A stretch of DNA of 57,265 nt. Origin: a virus. The DNA lies in the IMG/VR virus record IMGVR_UViG_3300037247_000734, positions 1-57,265 of that record; one strand, given 5' to 3'. Position 1 is the stretch's first letter. Each line of letters begins with the position of its first letter. Shown here one piece after another: positions 36,869-46,444 of this stretch. The notes beneath the pieces are model-generated. The model ran no database searches. It worked only from the letters and a program-made list of their open reading frames with translations, and was not told where the DNA came from. The position numbers were made by a program, and so were the translations under genes.

Positions 36869-37125
36869 CACCCGAACATCTCCCGTAGATTCGCATTCCG
36901 CTGTTCTCTGAGAGACTCATCCGGGTCCCTCGCCTTACATTGAACTTGCTCTTCCGGAAGAGCGTACAAGGGGATTGCTCCAACCCCCTCGATCGGGTAC
37001 CTTATCTTGAAGTCCCGCATGAATGCCTTCGGGAATGGCGGTACGATTTCAAGTTGGATTGATTCCTCCGCCTCCCTCAGCGTCCTCTGTTGTTCCGCCA
37101 TCCGTAGGTCCTCCGTCTGGTCCAT
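36868..37125 (-). CDS. Hypothetical protein, 85 aa
   Basis: ATG 37125 (MDQTEDLRMAEQQRTL) has GAGGAG seven bases before it, inside the preceding gene, so 77 bases are shared in two frames. Helical ends flank a central IQLEIVPPFPKAFMRDF and YPIEGVGAIPLYALP. Function unknown. Confidence 0.6.
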   Translation of the reverse strand: MDQTEDLRMAEQQRTLREAEESIQLEIVPPFPKAFMRDFKIRYPIEGVGAIPLYALPEEQVQCKARDPDESLREQRNANLREMFG

Positions 37126-37531
37126 CACTGCTCTCCTCATTAAGATTATATGAACACATGTCCTTCGATCCTCCCAAGGGTCCATCGGGGACCGCAATAG
37201 TAAGATGACCCTCCTTGTCGAATGTTATGCTTGCTGTTTCCTGTAACATGAGTAGACACATCGAGAGCACCCTGAGCAACGGGCAAAGGGCATGAGGGTC
37301 CTGGGTCAGATGGCCAAACAGGGTTAGTGCGACCTTCTCAAGGAAGTCCTCTTCGTGGCCCGCTTTCATTGTCGCAGTTAATGTACACATGGCAGACCAG
37401 ATACTTACTACAGTGCTGATACCATTCATGTTCAACTCTACAGACTGCCCCGTGTCAGGATGCTTTCCGACTCTGACCTGCCTCACTCTTCGATCATCAT
37501 TCGGACACCGACTGTAGTTCATATCACTCAT
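37049..37531 (-). CDS. Hypothetical protein, 160 aa
   Basis: GGGAG precedes ATG 37531. The N-terminal 60 residues are mixed, the middle helical and hydrophobic (EKVALTLFGHLTQDPHALCP, LRVLSMCLLMLQETASI), followed by a beta strand and a Gly/Asp/Glu-rich tail that overprints the next gene. It starts four bases inside the end of the 403-aa gene and may belong to the ubiquitin-like operon. Confidence 0.6.
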   Translation of the reverse strand: MSDMNYSRCPNDDRRVRQVRVGKHPDTGQSVELNMNGISTVVSIWSAMCTLTATMKAGHEEDFLEKVALTLFGHLTQDPHALCPLLRVLSMCLLMLQETASITFDKEGHLTIAVPDGPLGGSKDMCSYNLNEESSDGPDGGPTDGGTTEDAEGGGGINPT

Positions 37532-38739
37532 GGTAGTCTCCCATTCGTCAGCCTGTGGAGTATCTTACCTCTCTCGTCCGTGTGGGATATATCCACGTTG
37601 CCCGGCCCGTCGAGGTTCGACTTGAGCAACTGCAGGCTGAAGTAGTCGAGACTTTGATCCTCACGCTGTACTGTTATGGGCAACTCACGCAACATAGCTA
37701 AGCCGAAGGCTCTCCTTTGACGTTCGGAGCACTCGGAACCCGCCACCCCGGACAACAGTTCGCGTACCAACTCCTGTGCCTTTTCTATCCACGCTATCGG
37801 AGGACGAACGTTGGTGTAATTGATCGGGTTCCCCGGCACATGTAGGCTGTAGCCCATAACAGAATGACGTAGGAGACGGAGTTCTATCGCACTCGGAGAG
37901 GGCTCGCATTCAAAGCCACGGAAGTCACCTATACAACCACCCATATAGCCTCGATTGTACTGATGCTTGTAGGGACCCAACCACTGCGGTGTCACGGGAG
38001 GCCAACCCCTCTCGCCTAGTGCCCTGTTCATTTCGTACAACCAGTCAGGCACCACGTACAGTCCCATCATTTTCTCTCTTGTGATAGGCAATGTTAAACC
38101 GAATGCGTAAGCCGCTGCTTCACGTAGGGTTTCATTCGCCATAAGAGTCCTAATATCGTGAGTCCGGCACCCTGCGTAGCGTTTAATGATGTCCAGGACC
38201 AGTGGACCCTCCCAGGGTTCCTTTCCAGTAAAATATACTTCTTCCCCTGCCAGGAAGGTGGCAGCATACTCGGAAGCGAGCTTGAGCCAATCTAGTTCGA
38301 CGCCCCCCTGACGTTGCTCCATCATGGCTTCAAGAACCAACGACAGTCCCCACTGTCTCTTTATCCTCCGGGGTGGCAAGGTCCCTAGCTTTTCATACCC
38401 ATACTTGATTAACTTGTCACGTAAGGGTGCCACGTCCAATTGGGCAAAGCCACAGCAATAGGGAGTCCCCTCGGGAGCCGGGATCATTAGGGCCTTATAC
38501 CTCGCGGTCTCTACCGAACCTTCTTCGCAGGTCCACTCAAGGTAGTTCTTCCTCACTTCGGTTACACCTCCGCTCTGTTCAGGCCAAATGAGGTGGAATG
38601 CTTCCGTAATCGTACCGAACAGTTCCCCAGCCTTATAACTCCTCGCCGGTGGGTTTTCCCACTCCGCCAACTGGTCAATTCCTATGGTTATGCAGTCCGC
38701 TACGGTCCCTCCTACACCACAACTAGGCCACTTTGCCAT
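37528..38739 (-). CDS. Unknown protein at the end of the ubiquitin-like operon, 403 aa
   Basis: ATG 38739 has GAGGAGG seven bases upstream and overlaps the JAMM gene by 17 bases. Cys occur at the N-terminus (WPSCGVGGTVADC), in PYCCGF (near residue 115), in MGGCIGDFRGFEC (near residue 280) and in a late GSEC. No E2 (UBC) signature such as an HPN tripeptide is visible, and no known domain was recognised. Its conserved coupling to E1 and JAMM makes it a candidate for the missing transfer or substrate-recognition component. Confidence 0.72.
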   Translation of the reverse strand: MAKWPSCGVGGTVADCITIGIDQLAEWENPPARSYKAGELFGTITEAFHLIWPEQSGGVTEVRKNYLEWTCEEGSVETARYKALMIPAPEGTPYCCGFAQLDVAPLRDKLIKYGYEKLGTLPPRRIKRQWGLSLVLEAMMEQRQGGVELDWLKLASEYAATFLAGEEVYFTGKEPWEGPLVLDIIKRYAGCRTHDIRTLMANETLREAAAYAFGLTLPITREKMMGLYVVPDWLYEMNRALGERGWPPVTPQWLGPYKHQYNRGYMGGCIGDFRGFECEPSPSAIELRLLRHSVMGYSLHVPGNPINYTNVRPPIAWIEKAQELVRELLSGVAGSECSERQRRAFGLAMLRELPITVQREDQSLDYFSLQLLKSNLDGPGNVDISHTDERGKILHRLTNGRLP

Positions 38740-39751
38740 TATTGCCTCCTCTATCGGGAACGAGTCGAATGCCAATCGGAGCATCGTCCCACCTGTTGGC
38801 TAAGCACAGATTCCTGTAACCTCGGTAGTCAGCCGAGTCCAGAAGATACGTATCCCCGTCACTAGTCACCAGCCACAGGTCGCCAACACTCTCCAGGACA
38901 GGCTCGTCCCACGCTGTCATTAGAGCTACTGCATATAGCCCCGGTTCCCACGGGGTCTCCTCTTCCTTCCCGTGTGGCCTGGTGAACTTCGTGTCCCCTA
39001 TTAGATTCTTGAACCATTCACTCTGTTGCCACTTGAGCTGTCCTCGCTTGGACCTCGGATCATACAGCATCGGTTGTTTGGTTGGCTTGGGCACTTGCAG
39101 GAGTTTCTTGAGCTTCCTGTTCAAGGACGTATAGAGAGGGGCGGCTTTCCTCTCCATGTCCATAATCGTACCATCGGTGATATGGACACAGTGGCCGTAT
39201 GCACTTCCGTAGGTCGAGAAGGTTCCATCACGTCCGAAAATGACGTGAATTCCGGAACATTCCTTCTCCGTCCAATGACCGAGGTCGAAGGAGGAGGCAC
39301 CTGACGCCGATCCGGGATGTATATGGACGGTCCCGAGGAAACGTGCCCGTTCAAGAAACCAGTTCATACCCTCCTTGTCCTGCCACTCAATGCCTCCGGA
39401 AGTCCCCACCTGTTTCGGAACCATAAAGAACCACGGACACTTGTCCTTTACAATCTGGTGTTGCCTGCCCACGACGTACATGACCTCACGCTTGTACTGC
39501 GAGAGGAAACGGTCATACAGGTCCGCCAACCACCCCATTTCGGGATACTGATCCCAGTCCACGCCTCCGTAGTACAAGGCGGGTTTGGTCTTGTCAGCCG
39601 GTTCCGCCGGGCAGATAAGGGTCATCAAGCCCCGCGTCGTGCGATACAGACGGAGGTCCTCGCCGACCATCACTTCACCCACGCCGGGCAGGGCCTCAGT
39701 CGTGGCGAGAGCCTTGAACTCTTCAACCAAAGGCAGCGGGTCCCTAGCCAT
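38723..39751 (-). CDS. JAMM/MPN (JAB) metallo-isopeptidase
   Basis: A 342-aa protein with an intact JAMM zinc signature: H143, H145, P146, then six residues, S153 and D156 (HIHPGSASGASSFD). The next strand follows (GIHVIFGRDGTFSTYG). JAMM enzymes of this kind (eukaryotic Rpn11/AMSH, bacterial Cap3, BilD and PRTRC-A) remove ubiquitin-like proteins from targets or trim their C-termini. The C-terminal 150 residues have no recognised domain. ATG 39751 overlaps the E1 stop (TGATG) and has GGAGGAG upstream. No NlpC/P60 domain is attached, unlike lambda tail protein K. Confidence 0.85.
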   Translation of the reverse strand: MARDPLPLVEEFKALATTEALPGVGEVMVGEDLRLYRTTRGLMTLICPAEPADKTKPALYYGGVDWDQYPEMGWLADLYDRFLSQYKREVMYVVGRQHQIVKDKCPWFFMVPKQVGTSGGIEWQDKEGMNWFLERARFLGTVHIHPGSASGASSFDLGHWTEKECSGIHVIFGRDGTFSTYGSAYGHCVHITDGTIMDMERKAAPLYTSLNRKLKKLLQVPKPTKQPMLYDPRSKRGQLKWQQSEWFKNLIGDTKFTRPHGKEEETPWEPGLYAVALMTAWDEPVLESVGDLWLVTSDGDTYLLDSADYRGYRNLCLANRWDDAPIGIRLVPDRGGNNGKVA

Positions 39752-40515
39752 CAGAGTATCTCCTCCGGCTCGACAGCCGTGCGGGCCACGACGGTAGTCC
39801 AAGCCTTGGTAGTATAGGTCTTGGGATTCCGCCGCCAGTAGTATTCCCCCACTACTACGGGCAGGTCTCCCTCCGGCTTCCAGAACGTCACGGCCTCAAG
39901 GATAGCTGGACCAAACAAGGCCCCCGTCATAAGGTTCGAGAGCGTACTCTGAGCACCGCAGCCCTGTGGCTCGTTCCCGTCGATAGGCTTGTGGTTCGGA
40001 TCACCGACCTCTAAATGGAAGGGCTTCCAATCGTGCACAGCACCGTAGTTCTCGTAGACCCCAAAGTACACCTGTCCGTAGTTCATGTCGCAGCCGCTCA
40101 TCACCATAAGAGTACGGCCCCCTCGGTTCACACACCACTCCCGAACGGCAAGGCGAGCGTCGTCCACATCCACATTCACGATAACAATCACATCCGCTCG
40201 TGGACCTATCGACACATCACCCTCAAGAGCCCACGCTTGGAATGTACACGTCCGTGCCGAGGTTCGGGCGAGTAGCCCCTTGGGGGTGTGGGTATCCTTA
40301 GCACTGGCGACTTTGCTAATGCCGAGGATATTGAAGTTGTCTTCTCTGCACCACTGTCGCTCGGTGTTCCTCGGCGTCAGCCAATCCGGGTCCAGGTAGC
40401 GAATTGCCAAAGGTTGGAGTCTCTTGAGTAGGGAACAAAAGTAGTTCCCCGAGGTCCAGTACGTACCGCCGCAGCCGACGAATATGACCGCCACGTCGTT
40501 AGGCATATAAGTCAT
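39751..40515 (-). CDS. E1/ThiF-like adenylyltransferase
   Basis: A 254-aa Rossmann-fold adenylyltransferase. The nucleotide loop is GCGGT at 14-18. D42 and D44 occur in the YLDPDW strand. TPRNTERQ at 48-54 corresponds to the NLxRQ motif of ThiF/MoeB, and K68 (GISKVAS) to the conserved lysine. A later strand VMSGCDMNYG resembles the post-Rossmann region, and Cys occurs in QGCGAQST. This enzyme adenylates the C-terminal Gly of a ubiquitin-like or sulfur-carrier protein. ATG 40515 has GGAGG eight bases upstream and overlaps the preceding gene by 17 bases. No fused E2 domain. Confidence 0.87.
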   Translation of the reverse strand: MTYMPNDVAVIFVGCGGTYWTSGNYFCSLLKRLQPLAIRYLDPDWLTPRNTERQWCREDNFNILGISKVASAKDTHTPKGLLARTSARTCTFQAWALEGDVSIGPRADVIVIVNVDVDDARLAVREWCVNRGGRTLMVMSGCDMNYGQVYFGVYENYGAVHDWKPFHLEVGDPNHKPIDGNEPQGCGAQSTLSNLMTGALFGPAILEAVTFWKPEGDLPVVVGEYYWRRNPKTYTTKAWTTVVARTAVEPEEIL

Positions 40516-40894
40516 CGGGTTCCCCTCCATTATCAACCGGGTCAACTGGGTCAACCGGGTTATCGTCCAATTCCAGAAGGTTCGGCCACGCCGGATTTCT
40601 CCGGAGCCAATTAACTTCCGAACCAGTCAGAAACGTCTTATCCTCGAAGTGCTTCGATGCAAGTCGGGGGTCGTAGACAACTTTTCCTGTTTCAAGGTTC
40701 TGTACTACAACCTTCTTGTTCAGCACCTCAGTATCCCCATTCCCAAACAGGAGGAACAGTTCTGTCAACTCGGGGTATCGTGCATGGTGCCGAATACCCA
40801 ACCAACAGATGGTCTCCTTTGTCTCCCCATTGGGAGCAAAAACCTTCATTCTTGCAGGTGGACTACCAAAGAAGTCCTCTAAGAATGGGTGCAT
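40499..40894 (-). CDS. Unknown protein between Ubl and E1 genes, 131 aa
   Basis: ATG 40894 with AAAGGTGG five bases before. Residues 14-75 are beta-rich (ARMKVFAPNGETKETICWLG, LTELFLLFGNGDTEVLNKKV), with ARYPEL in between; then a charged helix with NWLRRNPAWPNLLEL. The tail is a short DPV repeat (NPVDPVDPVDNGG). No E2 active-site pattern is evident; the single Cys of the core lies in TICWLG. Position inside the operon suggests a partner or substrate of the conjugation pathway. Confidence 0.68.
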   Translation of the reverse strand: MHPFLEDFFGSPPARMKVFAPNGETKETICWLGIRHHARYPELTELFLLFGNGDTEVLNKKVVVQNLETGKVVYDPRLASKHFEDKTFLTGSEVNWLRRNPAWPNLLELDDNPVDPVDPVDNGGEPDDLYA

Positions 40895-40965
40895 TGTCCA
40901 CCTTTCAGCAAGGGGGGGAGGGAACTTTTCCCCCGCCCCCCACCTCCGTGGCCACAAGAGGATCG

Positions 40966-41196
40966 CTACGCGAGACGCCCACCAACCGGGGCTGTCGCTA
41001 CCGTGTCGCCTTCTTTGACGACCGTCGCCGCAGTCGCGGGATGACCATTGACACGTATGGCATTAATAGTGTCGATACCTCGTAGGTGTCCATCCTCGAA
41101 CAGAGCCCGCACCGTGGAGTCTACAGGGACCTCCGTGGTGATGAACTCACCGTTGACCTCAATCGAGACCTTCATCGCTGCTTGTTCCTCAGCCAT
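40966..41196 (-). CDS. Ubiquitin-like / ThiS-like beta-grasp modifier, 76 aa
   Basis: Start at ATG 41196, with AGGAGG eight bases upstream; it gives 76 residues, the length of ubiquitin. The order is beta hairpin (KVSIEVNGEFITTEVPVDST), helix (VRALFEDGHL), strand INAIRVNG, then KEGDTVATAPVGG: the hallmark of ThiS/MoaD proteins, whose last strand ends in GG. Here GG is at 72-73 and three residues (RLA) follow, as in precursors of ubiquitin-like modifiers that must be trimmed. E1 and JAMM genes in the same operon supply activation and a plausible trimming enzyme. Confidence 0.8.
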   Translation of the reverse strand: MAEEQAAMKVSIEVNGEFITTEVPVDSTVRALFEDGHLRGIDTINAIRVNGHPATAATVVKEGDTVATAPVGGRLA

Positions 41197-41274
41197 TACC
41201 CGTCCTCCTATCGGCGTCCGCCGATGATGAGGCTGCCTCAACTCTGAGCATCCCGTCGATGCCCTTACGTTCAA

Positions 41275-41303
41275 AACATAGCATCTTCCCGGAAGATTGT
41301 CAA
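41275..41303 (-). promoter_or_regulatory. Sigma-70 promoter of the ubiquitin-like operon with a palindromic spacer
   Basis: TTGACA (41298-41303) and TATGTT (41275-41280) are 17 bp apart. The spacer contains ATCTTCC-C-GGAAGAT, a 15-bp dyad with 7-bp arms, an ideal operator position. A hairpin (ATCGGC/GCCGAT, 41210-41225) ends next to the AGGAGG of the modifier gene, which suggests control of translation as well. Confidence 0.78.
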
Positions 41304-41311
41304 CAACTATC

Positions 41312-41629
41312 CTAAAGTTTTTTTGAACCCGATAATACCTTCAATGCTTCGGCGATGAAGCGAGGATTATCGGCAAGGAATTGGGTAAGGGCTTCTCCCA
41401 AGATAACGAGGATGGCCTCCTCGTCCTTGAAGTCATGCCCTGCAACCATAGCATGGAGACTCTCGTGGATCACAAGCTCGATCTTACGGGAACGAGTCGT
41501 CCGACGGAGAACTCGGATGGTGGTCGTGCCGCTATCCATATCGGCGGCGACATCAGACCCGAGTTCCCTTTGGGTAGCCGACTTGACCTTGTAGGTGTGA
41601 GCACCGATCTTGACTGACCTGGGAAGCAT
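41312..41629 (-). CDS. HExxH zinc-metalloprotease-like protein, 105 aa
   Basis: AGGAGG precedes ATG 41629. The second half carries IELVIHESLHAMV, an exact HExxH zinc motif (His-Glu-Ser-Leu-His), and then a helix with EEAILVILGEALTQFL that may supply the third ligand (Glu). Size resembles SprT- or ImmA-like minimal phage metallopeptidases. The N-terminus is a beta sheet (VKIGAHTYKVKSATQR). It lies just upstream of the modifier promoter, so co-function is possible but not shown. Confidence 0.75.
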   Translation of the reverse strand: MLPRSVKIGAHTYKVKSATQRELGSDVAADMDSGTTTIRVLRRTTRSRKIELVIHESLHAMVAGHDFKDEEAILVILGEALTQFLADNPRFIAEALKVLSGSKKL

Positions 41630-42354: not shown

Positions 42355-43104
42355 CTACGTACCGAGGGCACGGCTGATCGCCATACCAACCAGGTTGATC
42401 TTCGGATCGGCACCGGCAGACGAATCTTCGAGGACACTCAGAAACGGAATCAGGTCCACGATATTTCCGGCTCCTACAGCCCCCCCAAAGTACCCGTTAC
42501 AACTGACTTCTCGTTCATCGACAAACACTCGGGCGATGCCTTGGGGATCAAACTTGATCGCGAGGTGGACATACTGGCTGGCTGCTACTGTTGCCACACC
42601 GGCAATGACGGTGTCGGAGTTGCCGATGGAGCTGACTGCGTCGAGTATGGCATCATCAGTCGCTTGGAGAGCGATACAGTCGTTGTCCGCGTTCGACGCT
42701 GTGCCATTTGTCAACATCAGGCCAACCTTGATGACTCGATCAGTCAGGACGGCATCATATTGGAACAACCACTCACACTCAGTCTCCTGGTCTGTACCCC
42801 AGGTAAACTCAGTGAGAGGGCTCCCATTCGCGAGGGTTGCCGGTCCTATTGCAACTCCAAGGACGGTATCCGCCACCACAGCATAAAAGTTGCCACCCGA
42901 TTCGACCGCCACTGCCGCTGTTGCCGACGTAATGCTGGCCCCCGTGAGGATCATATCGGCGTCCGCGATCATCCGGGTGCTATCTGTAGCGTTAACGTAG
43001 TCTGCGAGGATCGCAACCTTACCACGGAGAGGACGCCAGACGAAGTTTATCCTGTCCCGGCGGTCAACCTCGTGGGTGATGAAGCTCTGTAGTGAGGCTC
43101 TCAC
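42355..43104 (-). CDS. Jelly-roll-like virion protein, paralogue 4 of 4, 249 aa
   Basis: The last of four tandem relatives (42355-45402). Shared landmarks are DSTRMIADAD near residue 40, GTDQETECEW near 104, a VHLAIKFDPQG strand near 185 with a following VDER turn, and the end ISRALG. The pattern of alternating strands suggests a concanavalin/laminin-G-type sandwich, as used in decoration or receptor-binding proteins. Closest relative is paralogue 3. Function inferred from fold and location. Confidence 0.62.
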   Translation of the reverse strand: MRASLQSFITHEVDRRDRINFVWRPLRGKVAILADYVNATDSTRMIADADMILTGASITSATAAVAVESGGNFYAVVADTVLGVAIGPATLANGSPLTEFTWGTDQETECEWLFQYDAVLTDRVIKVGLMLTNGTASNADNDCIALQATDDAILDAVSSIGNSDTVIAGVATVAASQYVHLAIKFDPQGIARVFVDEREVSCNGYFGGAVGAGNIVDLIPFLSVLEDSSAGADPKINLVGMAISRALGT

Positions 43105-43113
43105 GATTTCTCC

Positions 43114-43890
43114 TTATGCACCGAGGGCACGGCTAATGGCAAACCCAACCAGATTGTACTTGGGATCAGCCGCTCCGGACGTGTCCTCTTTGCCGCCGTA
43201 GAACGGGATTAGATCAACGACGTTTCCGGCCCCTACCGAGCCCCCGAAGTTTGGAGCCCCTATATGGACTTCTCGTCCGTCGATGTAGCAGTGGGGGGTC
43301 CCCGCCGGATCGAACTTGATGGCGAGGTGAACGTAGCCACTTGCGGCCCGAGTCGCAGCCCCGGTCGTGAGCAGGTCCGCACCACTCCCTCCAATTGAGA
43401 CTCCAACGTCGATAACCGCTACGTTCTCGTCGATTGAGAAGTACACCTGATCGTTATCGGTGGTCTGAGCAGCTACGGGATCGTCGATCGCGTCCGACAG
43501 ACGCAGGCCGCAGACCATCCACCTGTCGGTAATGGCCGAGTCTATCTGAATCAGCCACTCAGCCTCGGTCTCCTGGTCCGTGCCCCACGTAAACTCCGTG
43601 AGGGGACTGTTGTTCGTCAGGGTAGCCGGGCCGAAGATGCATTCGTCGGTGCCTCCGCTCACTACCGCGTAAAAGTTACCACCACTTTCAACGGCTACGG
43701 CCGCTGTACCCGACGTGATGTTCAAACCTGTAAGGATCACATCGGGATCAGCGATCATTCGTGTAGCGTCGGTCGCATGGACGTAGTCAGCCAGGAGGGC
43801 AGCCTTGCCCTTGAGGGGACGCCAGATGTGGTTGATTCGGTCCCGGCGACTCGGTTCACGGGTGATGAAACTATGAAGAGATGCTCTCAC
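43114..43890 (-). CDS. Jelly-roll-like virion protein, paralogue 3 of 4, 258 aa
   Basis: Starts RASLHSFITREPSRRDRIN, nearly the same as paralogue 4, and has the same landmarks (DATRMIADPD, GTDQETEAEW, VHLAIKFDPAG, ISRALG). It differs mainly by extra loops near residues 140-170. Spaced nine bases from paralogue 4. Recent duplication of this pair is likely. Confidence 0.62.
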   Translation of the reverse strand: MRASLHSFITREPSRRDRINHIWRPLKGKAALLADYVHATDATRMIADPDVILTGLNITSGTAAVAVESGGNFYAVVSGGTDECIFGPATLTNNSPLTEFTWGTDQETEAEWLIQIDSAITDRWMVCGLRLSDAIDDPVAAQTTDNDQVYFSIDENVAVIDVGVSIGGSGADLLTTGAATRAASGYVHLAIKFDPAGTPHCYIDGREVHIGAPNFGGSVGAGNVVDLIPFYGGKEDTSGAADPKYNLVGFAISRALGA

Positions 43891-43902
43891 AATACTTACT
43901 CC

Positions 43903-44646
43903 TTATCGGGCCTGTCCGATAGCCCGTGAAATTCGCCACCCGTACACGGTCATAGCCTCGGTCGCTCCGGAATTCTCCAGGACTTGTACCCCGATCATCG
44001 GCGTTTGGGCCACGGCTGCACCGCCTGTCATGTCAAGGTGGGCTACGAGCTGGCCGTTGATTCGGGCTTCGCATCGGCCCAACCCGGTGTACTTGATTGA
44101 AAAGTGGTACACGCCACCGGCTACAACAAGTACGCCTGTGTCAACGTCCAGGTCGGTTCCGCCCGACGCTACGTCGGTAACAAAACCCCAGTTCGTGTCG
44201 CTGTCGTCACCCTCGTTGAAGTTGAAAACCGCCATGCCATTGTTATTAACGGCCATGTCAGCCGGGTTGGTGTTTAGCTGGAGCCCTGCCATCACTATGA
44301 GGTCCGTAATAGTCGAGGGCATCTTGATAGCACACTCGAATTCAGCCTCGCGGTCGGTCCGCAGGGTGAGGTTGTCAACGTGGCATTGGCAGGCATTCGC
44401 CAGTTCGTGTACAACCAGGATCGACTGATCGTTATCCACGGCTGCCGTCACTACGTCGATTCCGCCCTCAGCGTTGACGCTGGTGTTTCCGACGACCGCA
44501 TTAGTACCTGCAACCTCGACTAGCGGATCGGTAATCATCCGCGTGGACTCAGCCGTAGCCGTCAGGTTCGCTGTGACGCCGGGCTTACCGTTCTCACCAG
44601 CGATCCACAGCCACTCACGATAATGTCTGTTCAGAAGGAAACTCAT
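43903..44646 (-). CDS. Jelly-roll-like virion protein, paralogue 2 of 4, 247 aa
   Basis: Same architecture with ESTRMITDPL, RTDREAEFECAIKMPSTIT, YHFSIKYTGLG, ARINGQLVAHLD and ISRAIGQ. More distant from paralogues 3 and 4 than these are from each other. Starts with a short N-terminal WRE-type motif (HYREWLWIAGENGKPG). Confidence 0.62.
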   Translation of the reverse strand: MSFLLNRHYREWLWIAGENGKPGVTANLTATAESTRMITDPLVEVAGTNAVVGNTSVNAEGGIDVVTAAVDNDQSILVVHELANACQCHVDNLTLRTDREAEFECAIKMPSTITDLIVMAGLQLNTNPADMAVNNNGMAVFNFNEGDDSDTNWGFVTDVASGGTDLDVDTGVLVVAGGVYHFSIKYTGLGRCEARINGQLVAHLDMTGGAAVAQTPMIGVQVLENSGATEAMTVYGWRISRAIGQAR

Positions 44647-44649
44647 GGT

Positions 44650-45402
44650 TTAGGCTCCGTAAAGGCGACTGATCTTCTGCTCGTACCACACAACCTCGTC
44701 GGTGGTGGCAGACAGCGATTGCAGTCCCATCACTGGTTTAAGGTCTACGGTATTCCCACCGAAGTCCACCTCGGCGACCTTAACGCCGTTGATGTAGCAG
44801 TGGGCCGTCTCGTTCACGTCAAACTCGATACGGAAGTGATAACGAGTGAGCCCCGCCACCCGAACTCCCGAATCCGTATCAACCACGGTTCCGCCACCAG
44901 CGTTGCTCACGACACCCCAGGAGGCATCGGAATCGTCAGTGTTGAAGTTGAACAGTACAAGGTCATCATCATCTAGGCCCATGTCCAGGTCACTCTTGAG
45001 CCCGGCAATGAGGTGAATTCCAGTGGTGATGTCAGCGGGTGTTTCAAGATATCCTTCCCACCGGACCTCTCGATCACTGCCCCACGTCACATAGTTCCAC
45101 GGGCTCTGTCCCGCGTCCTGGTGAGGTACCAGAATCTCCTGATCGTCGTCCGCACCACCTGTCTGAGCAGTTAGTCCACCCTCAGAATTGTGCGTTACGT
45201 CGTCAGTCGCGGCACTCGTCCCCAGAATCTCGAAATCCGGGTCCGCCGTCATCCGAGTTGCCTCAGTCGAGTTTTGAATGTCGGCATTTATCGAGGGAAT
45301 ACCCCGCTCGCCACCGACCCACGTCAACTGCAACCTTCCACCTCGCCAGTCACGTTGTGGCCCGGCACAGACAGGAATATAGTCACTCGCCTTACCCATC
45401 AT
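44650..45402 (-). CDS. Jelly-roll-like virion protein, paralogue 1 of 4, 250 aa
   Basis: Landmarks EATRMTADPD, GSDREVRWEGYLETPADIT, YHFRIEFDVNE, CYINGVKVAEVDFG and ISRLYGA. N-terminus GRLQLTWVGGERGIPS corresponds to the same region in paralogue 2. It is upstream of the others, three bases from paralogue 2. Confidence 0.62.
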   Translation of the reverse strand: MMGKASDYIPVCAGPQRDWRGGRLQLTWVGGERGIPSINADIQNSTEATRMTADPDFEILGTSAATDDVTHNSEGGLTAQTGGADDDQEILVPHQDAGQSPWNYVTWGSDREVRWEGYLETPADITTGIHLIAGLKSDLDMGLDDDDLVLFNFNTDDSDASWGVVSNAGGGTVVDTDSGVRVAGLTRYHFRIEFDVNETAHCYINGVKVAEVDFGGNTVDLKPVMGLQSLSATTDEVVWYEQKISRLYGA

Positions 45403-45408
45403 TCTCTC

Positions 45409-45936
45409 CTAGATGACTCGCACGCATCGAAGCGTGATGAGCAGTTTGTACGTAAAAGCCTTGTCGTGAAGTCCGAGACGGGAGTTCGCCTGTACACGGA
45501 GAGAGTCGTCTGTACTGACAACGTCGTTGCCCGACATCCCCATGTCTATCTTACGGACCTCGCCCACCTTCATTCCGCCACAGTCCACCGAACCGATGCT
45601 CGAAGCTCCGCCCTTATTGACGCCCACTGAGCACCCGTTCTGCCCACCTTCGCTGGCACCCTTGCCATCATCCAGGCAGGTCACTTCGCCTCCCATAATC
45701 AGGAAGTTGTATGGGGCATCCGAAGAGCAAAAGTCAACCGCCGTCTCAGTTGACGTGGCATGTGCCACATAGCAGTTTAGGTCAAAGGGGGTACCATAGT
45801 TCCTGTTTCCAGTAGCACCCTTGAGCCCGTTTGGACTGTGCCTGATCCCCTTTTCCGGGACCTGGGTCATCACTCCAAGAGTGTCGTTGGCAGCCAACTC
45901 CGTTGGTCCACCACTTTGTCCAAGAATCGTTAGCAT
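45409..45936 (-). CDS. Virion fibre/decoration protein, 175 aa
   Basis: ATG 45936 with GGAG eight bases upstream. Beta-rich with FCSSDAPYNFLIMGGEVTCL and a C-terminal TDDSLRVQANSRLG followed by YKLLITLRCVRV. The same two landmarks (DAPYKFKMC, VDESLRIVLTLADS) occur in the 192-aa protein at 46456, so the two are distant paralogues. Structural by location. Confidence 0.6.
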   Translation of the reverse strand: MLTILGQSGGPTELAANDTLGVMTQVPEKGIRHSPNGLKGATGNRNYGTPFDLNCYVAHATSTETAVDFCSSDAPYNFLIMGGEVTCLDDGKGASEGGQNGCSVGVNKGGASSIGSVDCGGMKVGEVRKIDMGMSGNDVVSTDDSLRVQANSRLGLHDKAFTYKLLITLRCVRVI

Positions 45937-45940
45937 ATCG

Positions 45941-46444
45941 TTACTCCGAGGAAGGAATCGCGTAGAATTCAACTAGGACCAGCAGCTTGCCAGTCACGAC
46001 CGAGATGGCAGTAGTTATCGCTGCGTCAACATTCAACCCCGCTGCGACCATGTGACTCGTGTAGTCCACATTGTTTGCCAGGGCTTCCCATTCTGCTGTG
46101 AACCCCGAGGAATCGAACTTGACCAACTCTCCGACATCATCGGCAGTTACAGGAGTAAGGGTCGCCAGGGTGTTGTTATCCTCATCATTAACAGTGATAA
46201 CCACTGTCGAGGACGAGAAAATCTCAGTGACGAACCCCTTGATCCCCGTAATGATGAGCCCATACTTGTTCAGTGACGCCGGGATCAGCTCCAGGTATGT
46301 GTCCACCGGCACTTTTGACTCGTCAAAGTCGAACTCCAGCATCGCACACTGGAGGTTCACAATCTTCCCCTCGATCGCAGCGTTCCGCGTCACCGCATTC
46401 GCTGTTGTTCCCTTCAAGCTAGCTGGAACTGTAAAGTCCGCCAT
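45941..46444 (-). CDS. Virion protein candidate, 167 aa
   Basis: Strand-rich: VDTYLELIPASLNKYGLIITG, FSSSTVVITVNDEDNNTLAT and a C-terminal TGKLLVLVEFYAIP. Final strand resembles those of its neighbours (LLVLVEFYAI against LLITLRCVRV). Between two fibre-like genes. Confidence 0.58.
   Translation of the reverse strand: MADFTVPASLKGTTANAVTRNAAIEGKIVNLQCAMLEFDFDESKVPVDTYLELIPASLNKYGLIITGIKGFVTEIFSSSTVVITVNDEDNNTLATLTPVTADDVGELVKFDSSGFTAEWEALANNVDYTSHMVAAGLNVDAAITTAISVVTGKLLVLVEFYAIPSSE

Follow-up and report, generated by a model that had tools for sequence, protein, structure and literature searches.

Does a phage that carries genes for a ubiquitin-like modifier (Ubl), an E1-like activating enzyme and a JAMM protease side by side use them as a protein modification system of its own? 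The question was raised by the window, the whole 57,265-bp virus contig analyzed here, which encodes terminase, portal and DNA polymerase and in which a first-pass annotation had described these genes as a self-contained phage unit. The analysis gives good support to a phage module for Ubl activation and deconjugation, and it is probable that this phage-encoded module serves reversible ubiquitin-like conjugation and is related to PRTRC systems.

The operon is located on the minus strand (37049-41196) and its genes have good Shine-Dalgarno sequences. The gene for the 76-aa Ubl (40966-41196) is followed by those for a 131-aa protein (40499-40894), a 254-aa E1-like adenylyltransferase of the ThiF fold (39751-40515 from the best-placed ATG, in a frame open from 40554), a 342-aa JAMM/JAB metalloprotease (38723-39751) and a 403-aa protein (37528-38739), and all five of these coupled open reading frames were found where the first-pass annotation had placed them. 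The operon end that it gave, 37528, is one gene short: because the 403-aa gene overlaps by ATGA with the gene for a conserved 160-aa protein (RCPxD...HxLCP; 37049-37531), the operon extends to 37049 and the 160-aa gene is its last. ATGA or longer overlaps also occur at E1/JAMM and JAMM/403-aa. Concerning the operon's own promoter, a sigma-70-like sequence with an extended -10 element (TTGACA-N17-TATGTT; 41275-41303, minus strand) is located upstream of the Ubl gene in the 115-bp gap 5' of the operon, although this is a consensus match only and about three such sites are expected by chance in the region. Upstream of the operon a 105-aa HExxH protein is encoded (PHROG 1233; 41312-41629, minus strand). 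The operon shares its strand with the virion genes, and putative tail or fiber genes are directly upstream of it. A run of related genes for proteins of about 190-250 aa (42355-45972) probably encodes tail or fiber proteins, one of them with weak concanavalin/laminin-G similarity (0.0095).

When the five proteins were searched singly, no match passed the threshold in Pfam, PHROGs, NCBIfam, PADLOC or PDB, by tblastn in phages and plasmids, or in IMG/VR peptide scans, and no report on this phage family was found in the open-access literature. Relatives were found with a degenerate DNA pattern for DPDx5NxxRQW and then by further scans; none came to light when 84,980 prokaryote genomes were scanned for the E1 and the capsid protein. 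The Ubl-E1-JAMM set is present in nine related phage contigs of 27-58 kb, the window counted, the others being the five near relatives L013-L017 and the three members of a distant clade, L003, L011 and L020. The six near phages share the gene order HExxH protein, Ubl, E1, JAMM, 403-aa homolog and 160-aa homolog. The distant clade has Ubl-E1-JAMM, to which L003 adds a 403-aa homolog with several Cys-rich modules; the L020 contig is cut off inside JAMM and that of L011 ends soon past JAMM. Just upstream of the Ubl gene, several relatives, not the window, carry a gene for about 90 aa with the pattern DG..L......A.W..G (L015 6235-6528, L014 9173-9448, L016 9147-9434, L017 3053-3508 and L020 1728-1976).

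The motifs previously noted for a ThiF-type E1 (GCGGT, DPD, NxxRQ and, with the ATG at 40515 as start, K68) are present in the window protein together with D129, and in the alignment of nine phage E1s GxGG, DPD, N, RQW and D129 are invariant. Cys155 was considered as catalytic residue of the E1 and rejected, being absent in the distant clade; Cys199 is invariant instead. When family profiles were compared by hhalign, that of the phage E1s matched PRTRC E1 at 6.3e-18, with shuffled controls far lower. Matches of the E1 family to MccB, UBA5 and MoeB were at about 0.01. Among NCBIfam models, PRTRC_ThiF was matched by the most E1s (five of nine, below cut-off); the window E1 reached 18.1 bits against TIGR03736, far under the cut-off of 144.75 bits. 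In PADLOC the window E1 had no match, and E1-E2 matches among relatives were single and weak. The JAMM enzyme was likewise found intact, with HxHP (H143, H145), S153 and D156 as described earlier and E89 in addition, all of them invariant in five aligned JAMMs; in L003 the spacing ahead of the Ser is longer and the protein passes the gathering score of PF14464 (Prok-JAB). The JAMM profile aligned with PRTRC-A at 6.6e-10 (shuffled controls far lower), in a stretch of 163 columns that takes in the N-terminal part, and its first matches were the deubiquitinases AMSH (sst2, 4.8e-4) and RPN11 (RPN11-like N11, 0.006). In the PADLOC search of window proteins the sole match was JAB at 0.03.

The beta-grasp assignment of the modifier holds at the profile level, as the Ubl family profile built from the alignment of relatives had its best matches in MoaD (1.9e-5) and SAMP2 (6.7e-5) and the window Ubl alone matched PF02597 (ThiS) at 0.0012. 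The window Ubl ends in ...GDTVATAPVGGRLA, and its C-terminus had been described as GG plus RLA. From the aligned ends of the nine homologs (VGGRLA, QGGKQAA, TSGKQGN, KSGKQGA, RSGKQG, VHGQQGSDN, KSGKLG, ISSKAGC and ATEVAG) it is evident that this GG, at +8/+9 relative to the GD-turn Asp, is not conserved. The residue at +12, Gly in seven of nine Ubls and Ala in the other two (those of L013 and the window), is the last residue in four, the remaining Ubls having 1-3 extra residues. As judged from this alignment, what is conserved at the end is one small residue (Gly or Ala) 12 positions after the GD aspartate with 0-3 residues beyond, and because the +12 residue is conserved and the GG is not, the window Ubl is predicted to have its functional C-terminus at its own last residue, Ala76. 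The JAMM would then be needed for Ubl trimming only in the relatives with tails. CBASS conjugation of cGAS proceeds via a terminal Gly or Ala, and a terminal Ala gives less conjugation than Gly (PMC10097602).

The 403-aa protein had been named as a candidate for the transfer step, and in part this stands. In its family a single Cys is invariant (C269); it stands seven residues past an invariant Asn (N262), so that N-x6-C-x-[G/S] is present in all seven homologs, including that of L003 from the distant clade (N262-x6-C269-x-G in the window). Prok-E2_D proteins have N-x7-C-x-G (13/13), an N-C spacing one residue off. The comparison of the 403-aa family with Prok-E2_D by hhalign was not significant, its score being matched by 9 of 60 column-shuffled controls, PF14460 (Prok-E2_D) gave no match, and AlphaFold2 models of the family were unusable (mean pLDDT 44 and 35). 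The likeness of the motifs is suggestive, and the 403-aa protein, whether E2-like or E3-like, is a plausible Ubl carrier. Homologs in L014, L016, L017 and L003 add C-terminal Cys-rich zinc-finger modules, which may choose targets. Those of L003 (7910-9493) and L017 (6209-7963) have at least three C-terminal CxxC...CxxC modules resembling zinc ribbons or treble clefs; the L003 protein matched the double zinc ribbon at 1.8e-4, below cut-off. A more specific and distinctly more tentative version of the conjugation reading would be a three-step cascade, in which a Cys carrier that is not an E2, the 403-aa protein, attaches the Gly- or Ala-ended Ubl to virion or host proteins; in some phages zinc-finger modules fused to the carrier would choose the targets, and the cascade could be replaced at its locus by a phage ClpP peptidase.

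The closest matches of the Ubl profile (MoaD, SAMP2, ThiS), together with a ThiF equivalog model that three of the nine phage E1s also match, would fit a sulfur-carrier pathway of the CysO/Mec or QbsCDE type, in which the E1 would form a Ubl thiocarboxylate, the JAMM would process or release the Ubl and a sulfur-containing small molecule would be made. We consider this unlikely, as the E1 and JAMM align strongly with PRTRC components, the JAMM profile finds deubiquitinases first, and no sulfurtransferase, rhodanese or sulfur-acceptor enzyme was recognized in the operon; the 403-aa protein, which is lost together with the module (see below), shows no recognized biosynthetic similarity. As for features of CysO/Mec and ThiS/ThiF systems, neither a conserved di-glycine end nor a sulfur-transfer partner was found in the syntenic operons.

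The E1 tree agrees with the DNA polymerase tree in the groups {window, L013}, {L014, L015, L016} and {L003,(L011, L020)}, and the set has therefore been inherited with the phages; on these trees, it is an old, vertically inherited phage part and no recent import. As an unbiased test of occurrence, a scan for the capsid protein added nine contigs not chosen via the Ubl system. In eight of them none of E1, JAMM, Ubl and 403-aa protein was matched; three of the eight were mapped by synteny and stop short of the expected locus, and five were unmapped and short (6-12 kb). Among the ends mapped, only one capsid-scan contig, G011, reaches the locus, and G011 is the nearest relative of the window (polymerase about 70% identical, sister in the polymerase tree, 100/100). 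G011 lacks all of Ubl, E1, JAMM and 403-aa protein at this locus: the Ubl and HExxH genes are missing on one side of its 131-aa gene, and E1, JAMM and 403-aa genes on the other. At the syntenic Ubl/HExxH position it has a ClpP peptidase (L073 17235-17825; PF00574, 5.8e-32) that is absent from all the other contig pieces analyzed, and the second gap, at the E1-JAMM-403-aa position, holds two small genes. Because G011 is nested inside module-bearing phages, loss is the simplest reading, although its genome is partly unsequenced and relocation is possible. The joint absence of two separated blocks supports a single function for Ubl, E1, JAMM and 403-aa protein.

The 131-aa and 160-aa homologs are kept in G011, and so neither gene needs the Ubl module. 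The 131-aa gene, which had been proposed as a second transfer or substrate factor, is present in three of six near-clade phages with E1 and in this relative without E1, and its product probably does not belong to the modifier system. The HExxH gene stands ahead of the operon in each of the six near-clade phages and, like Ubl, is absent from G011. Thus, the five proteins do not form one functional set, since the 131-aa gene is separable, and of the self-contained Ubl-E1-JAMM unit first described, the gene order, the co-divergence with the polymerase and the joint loss argue in favor whereas the GG end and a transfer or substrate role of the 131-aa protein are not supported.

The ClpP family also serves in capsid maturation, and a ClpP peptidase occupies the locus in G011. 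Together with the position of the operon, on the virion-gene strand and directly downstream of putative tail or fiber genes, this would suit a function in which Ubl and JAMM help to build or mature the particle and conjugation is not the purpose. The precedent is the lambda/T1 tail proteins TAPI (Ubl) and TAPK (JAMM), where Ubl and JAMM occur in neighboring phage genes as in the window, but without an E1, with the JAMM fused to NlpC/P60 and the Ubl fused to another domain (PMC1779556). The phage set includes an E1 whose ATP site is invariant, an NlpC/P60 domain was not recognized, and G011 keeps capsid and fiber-like genes without the module, which makes a mere aid to virion assembly rather improbable. 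That the module is a counter-defense decoy, which binds or poisons host Bil or CBASS conjugation systems and leaves targets of its own unmodified, is very improbable: host Ubl-type systems do counter phages (PMC10097602) and one relative has lost the module in the manner of an accessory gene, but conservation of the catalytic residues of both enzymes across very large divergence and co-divergence with the phage core go beyond what a decoy needs, and the window E1 has no PADLOC match.

For reversible conjugation, the preferred reading, the analysis shows the gene identities, the conserved catalytic residues, the shared inheritance, the joint loss and the affinity to PRTRC; the conjugation chemistry, the 403-aa protein as carrier, the timing and the targets are inferred. 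The E1 would adenylate the C-terminal carboxylate of the Ubl, at a single terminal Gly or Ala and not at GG, and the Ubl would be passed to its target, probably through the conserved Cys of the 403-aa protein, whose zinc-finger modules in some homologs may choose the targets. The JAMM would trim the tails of 1-3 residues that roughly half of the relatives carry, and would remove the Ubl from conjugates. Since the operon shares the strand of the virion genes, late expression would be most likely, with targets among virion proteins or among host proteins encountered at a late stage of infection. Counted against conjugation are the terminal Ala of the window Ubl, the lack of PRTRC-C profile similarity of the Ubl and the lack of significant E2 homology of the 403-aa protein. 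Bacterial Ubl systems have so far been best known as anti-phage weapons or as unexplained plasmid genes, and the present module suggests that this group of uncultured phages is able to attach a small protein tag to proteins and to take it off again. Being a core phage version, linked to the polymerase and lost as a unit in G011 with ClpP instead, it allows one to ask directly what use a mobile element has for such tags, and the 403-aa protein is a candidate carrier outside the recognized E2 families.

Among known systems, CBASS type II (Cap2/Cap3, cGAS) likewise conjugates via a single terminal Gly or Ala and has a JAMM enzyme that reverses the reaction (PMC10097602), but there the modifier is a nucleotidyltransferase and Cap2 joins E2 and E1 in one protein. 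The window has a beta-grasp modifier instead; PADLOC matched no E1-E2 fusion among its proteins, and no cyclase or effector as in CBASS type II or Bil was recognized. The nearest known system is PRTRC of plasmids, one of those that the first-pass annotation had named. PRTRC is operon type 6d of Iyer et al. 2006, with the Ubl PRTRC-C, the JAB protein PRTRC-A, a ThiF-type E1, the E2-like PRTRC-B/Prok-E2_D and the alpha-helical PRTRC-F (PMC1779556). Both systems have a stand-alone Ubl with a single terminal residue (Gly in PRTRC-C proteins, one of which has a short tail; Gly or Ala in the phages), a separate JAMM with an N-terminal domain, a separate, homologous E1 that may be of the same class and one protein with an N..C.G motif. 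In contrast, the phage E1s form a clade of their own (100/100) separate from PRTRC E1s, the phage Ubl is not alignable to PRTRC-C and showed no similarity to it in profile comparison, the 403-aa protein is present where PRTRC has Prok-E2_D, and the gene order is Ubl-E1-JAMM-403 versus C-F-B-A-ThiF. Since neither Prok-E2_D (PRTRC-B) nor PRTRC-F or PRTRC-E was found by profile among the phage operon proteins, and profiles do not identify the Ubl as PRTRC-C, the module is PRTRC-related, not PRTRC.

The first-pass annotation had held that a self-contained phage version with an unknown carrier step would be new, which goes somewhat too far: phage carriage alone is already known from PRTRC-type E1/JAB/E2-like clusters in the cultured phages Burkholderia BgVeeders33, Vibrio D69, Bacillus KLEB27-3 and Salmonella Arash (pieces L052, L053, L054 and L055), whose cluster genes are mostly annotated as hypothetical. 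In Arash, the E1 and E2-like proteins are labeled structural in GenBank after particle mass spectrometry, although its authors state that abundant enzymes may be carried over into particles (PMC10585845) and the gene numbers of the paper's table and the GenBank record may not match. These clusters resemble the window in combining phage-borne E1, JAMM and an E2-like protein or candidate, but they carry Prok-E2_D (2e-39 in BgVeeders33; in KLEB27-3 and Arash with weak matches that miss the cut-off; in D69 recognized from the motif alone) and their E1s group with plasmid PRTRC E1s, whereas the E1s of the window and its relatives stand in their own clade.
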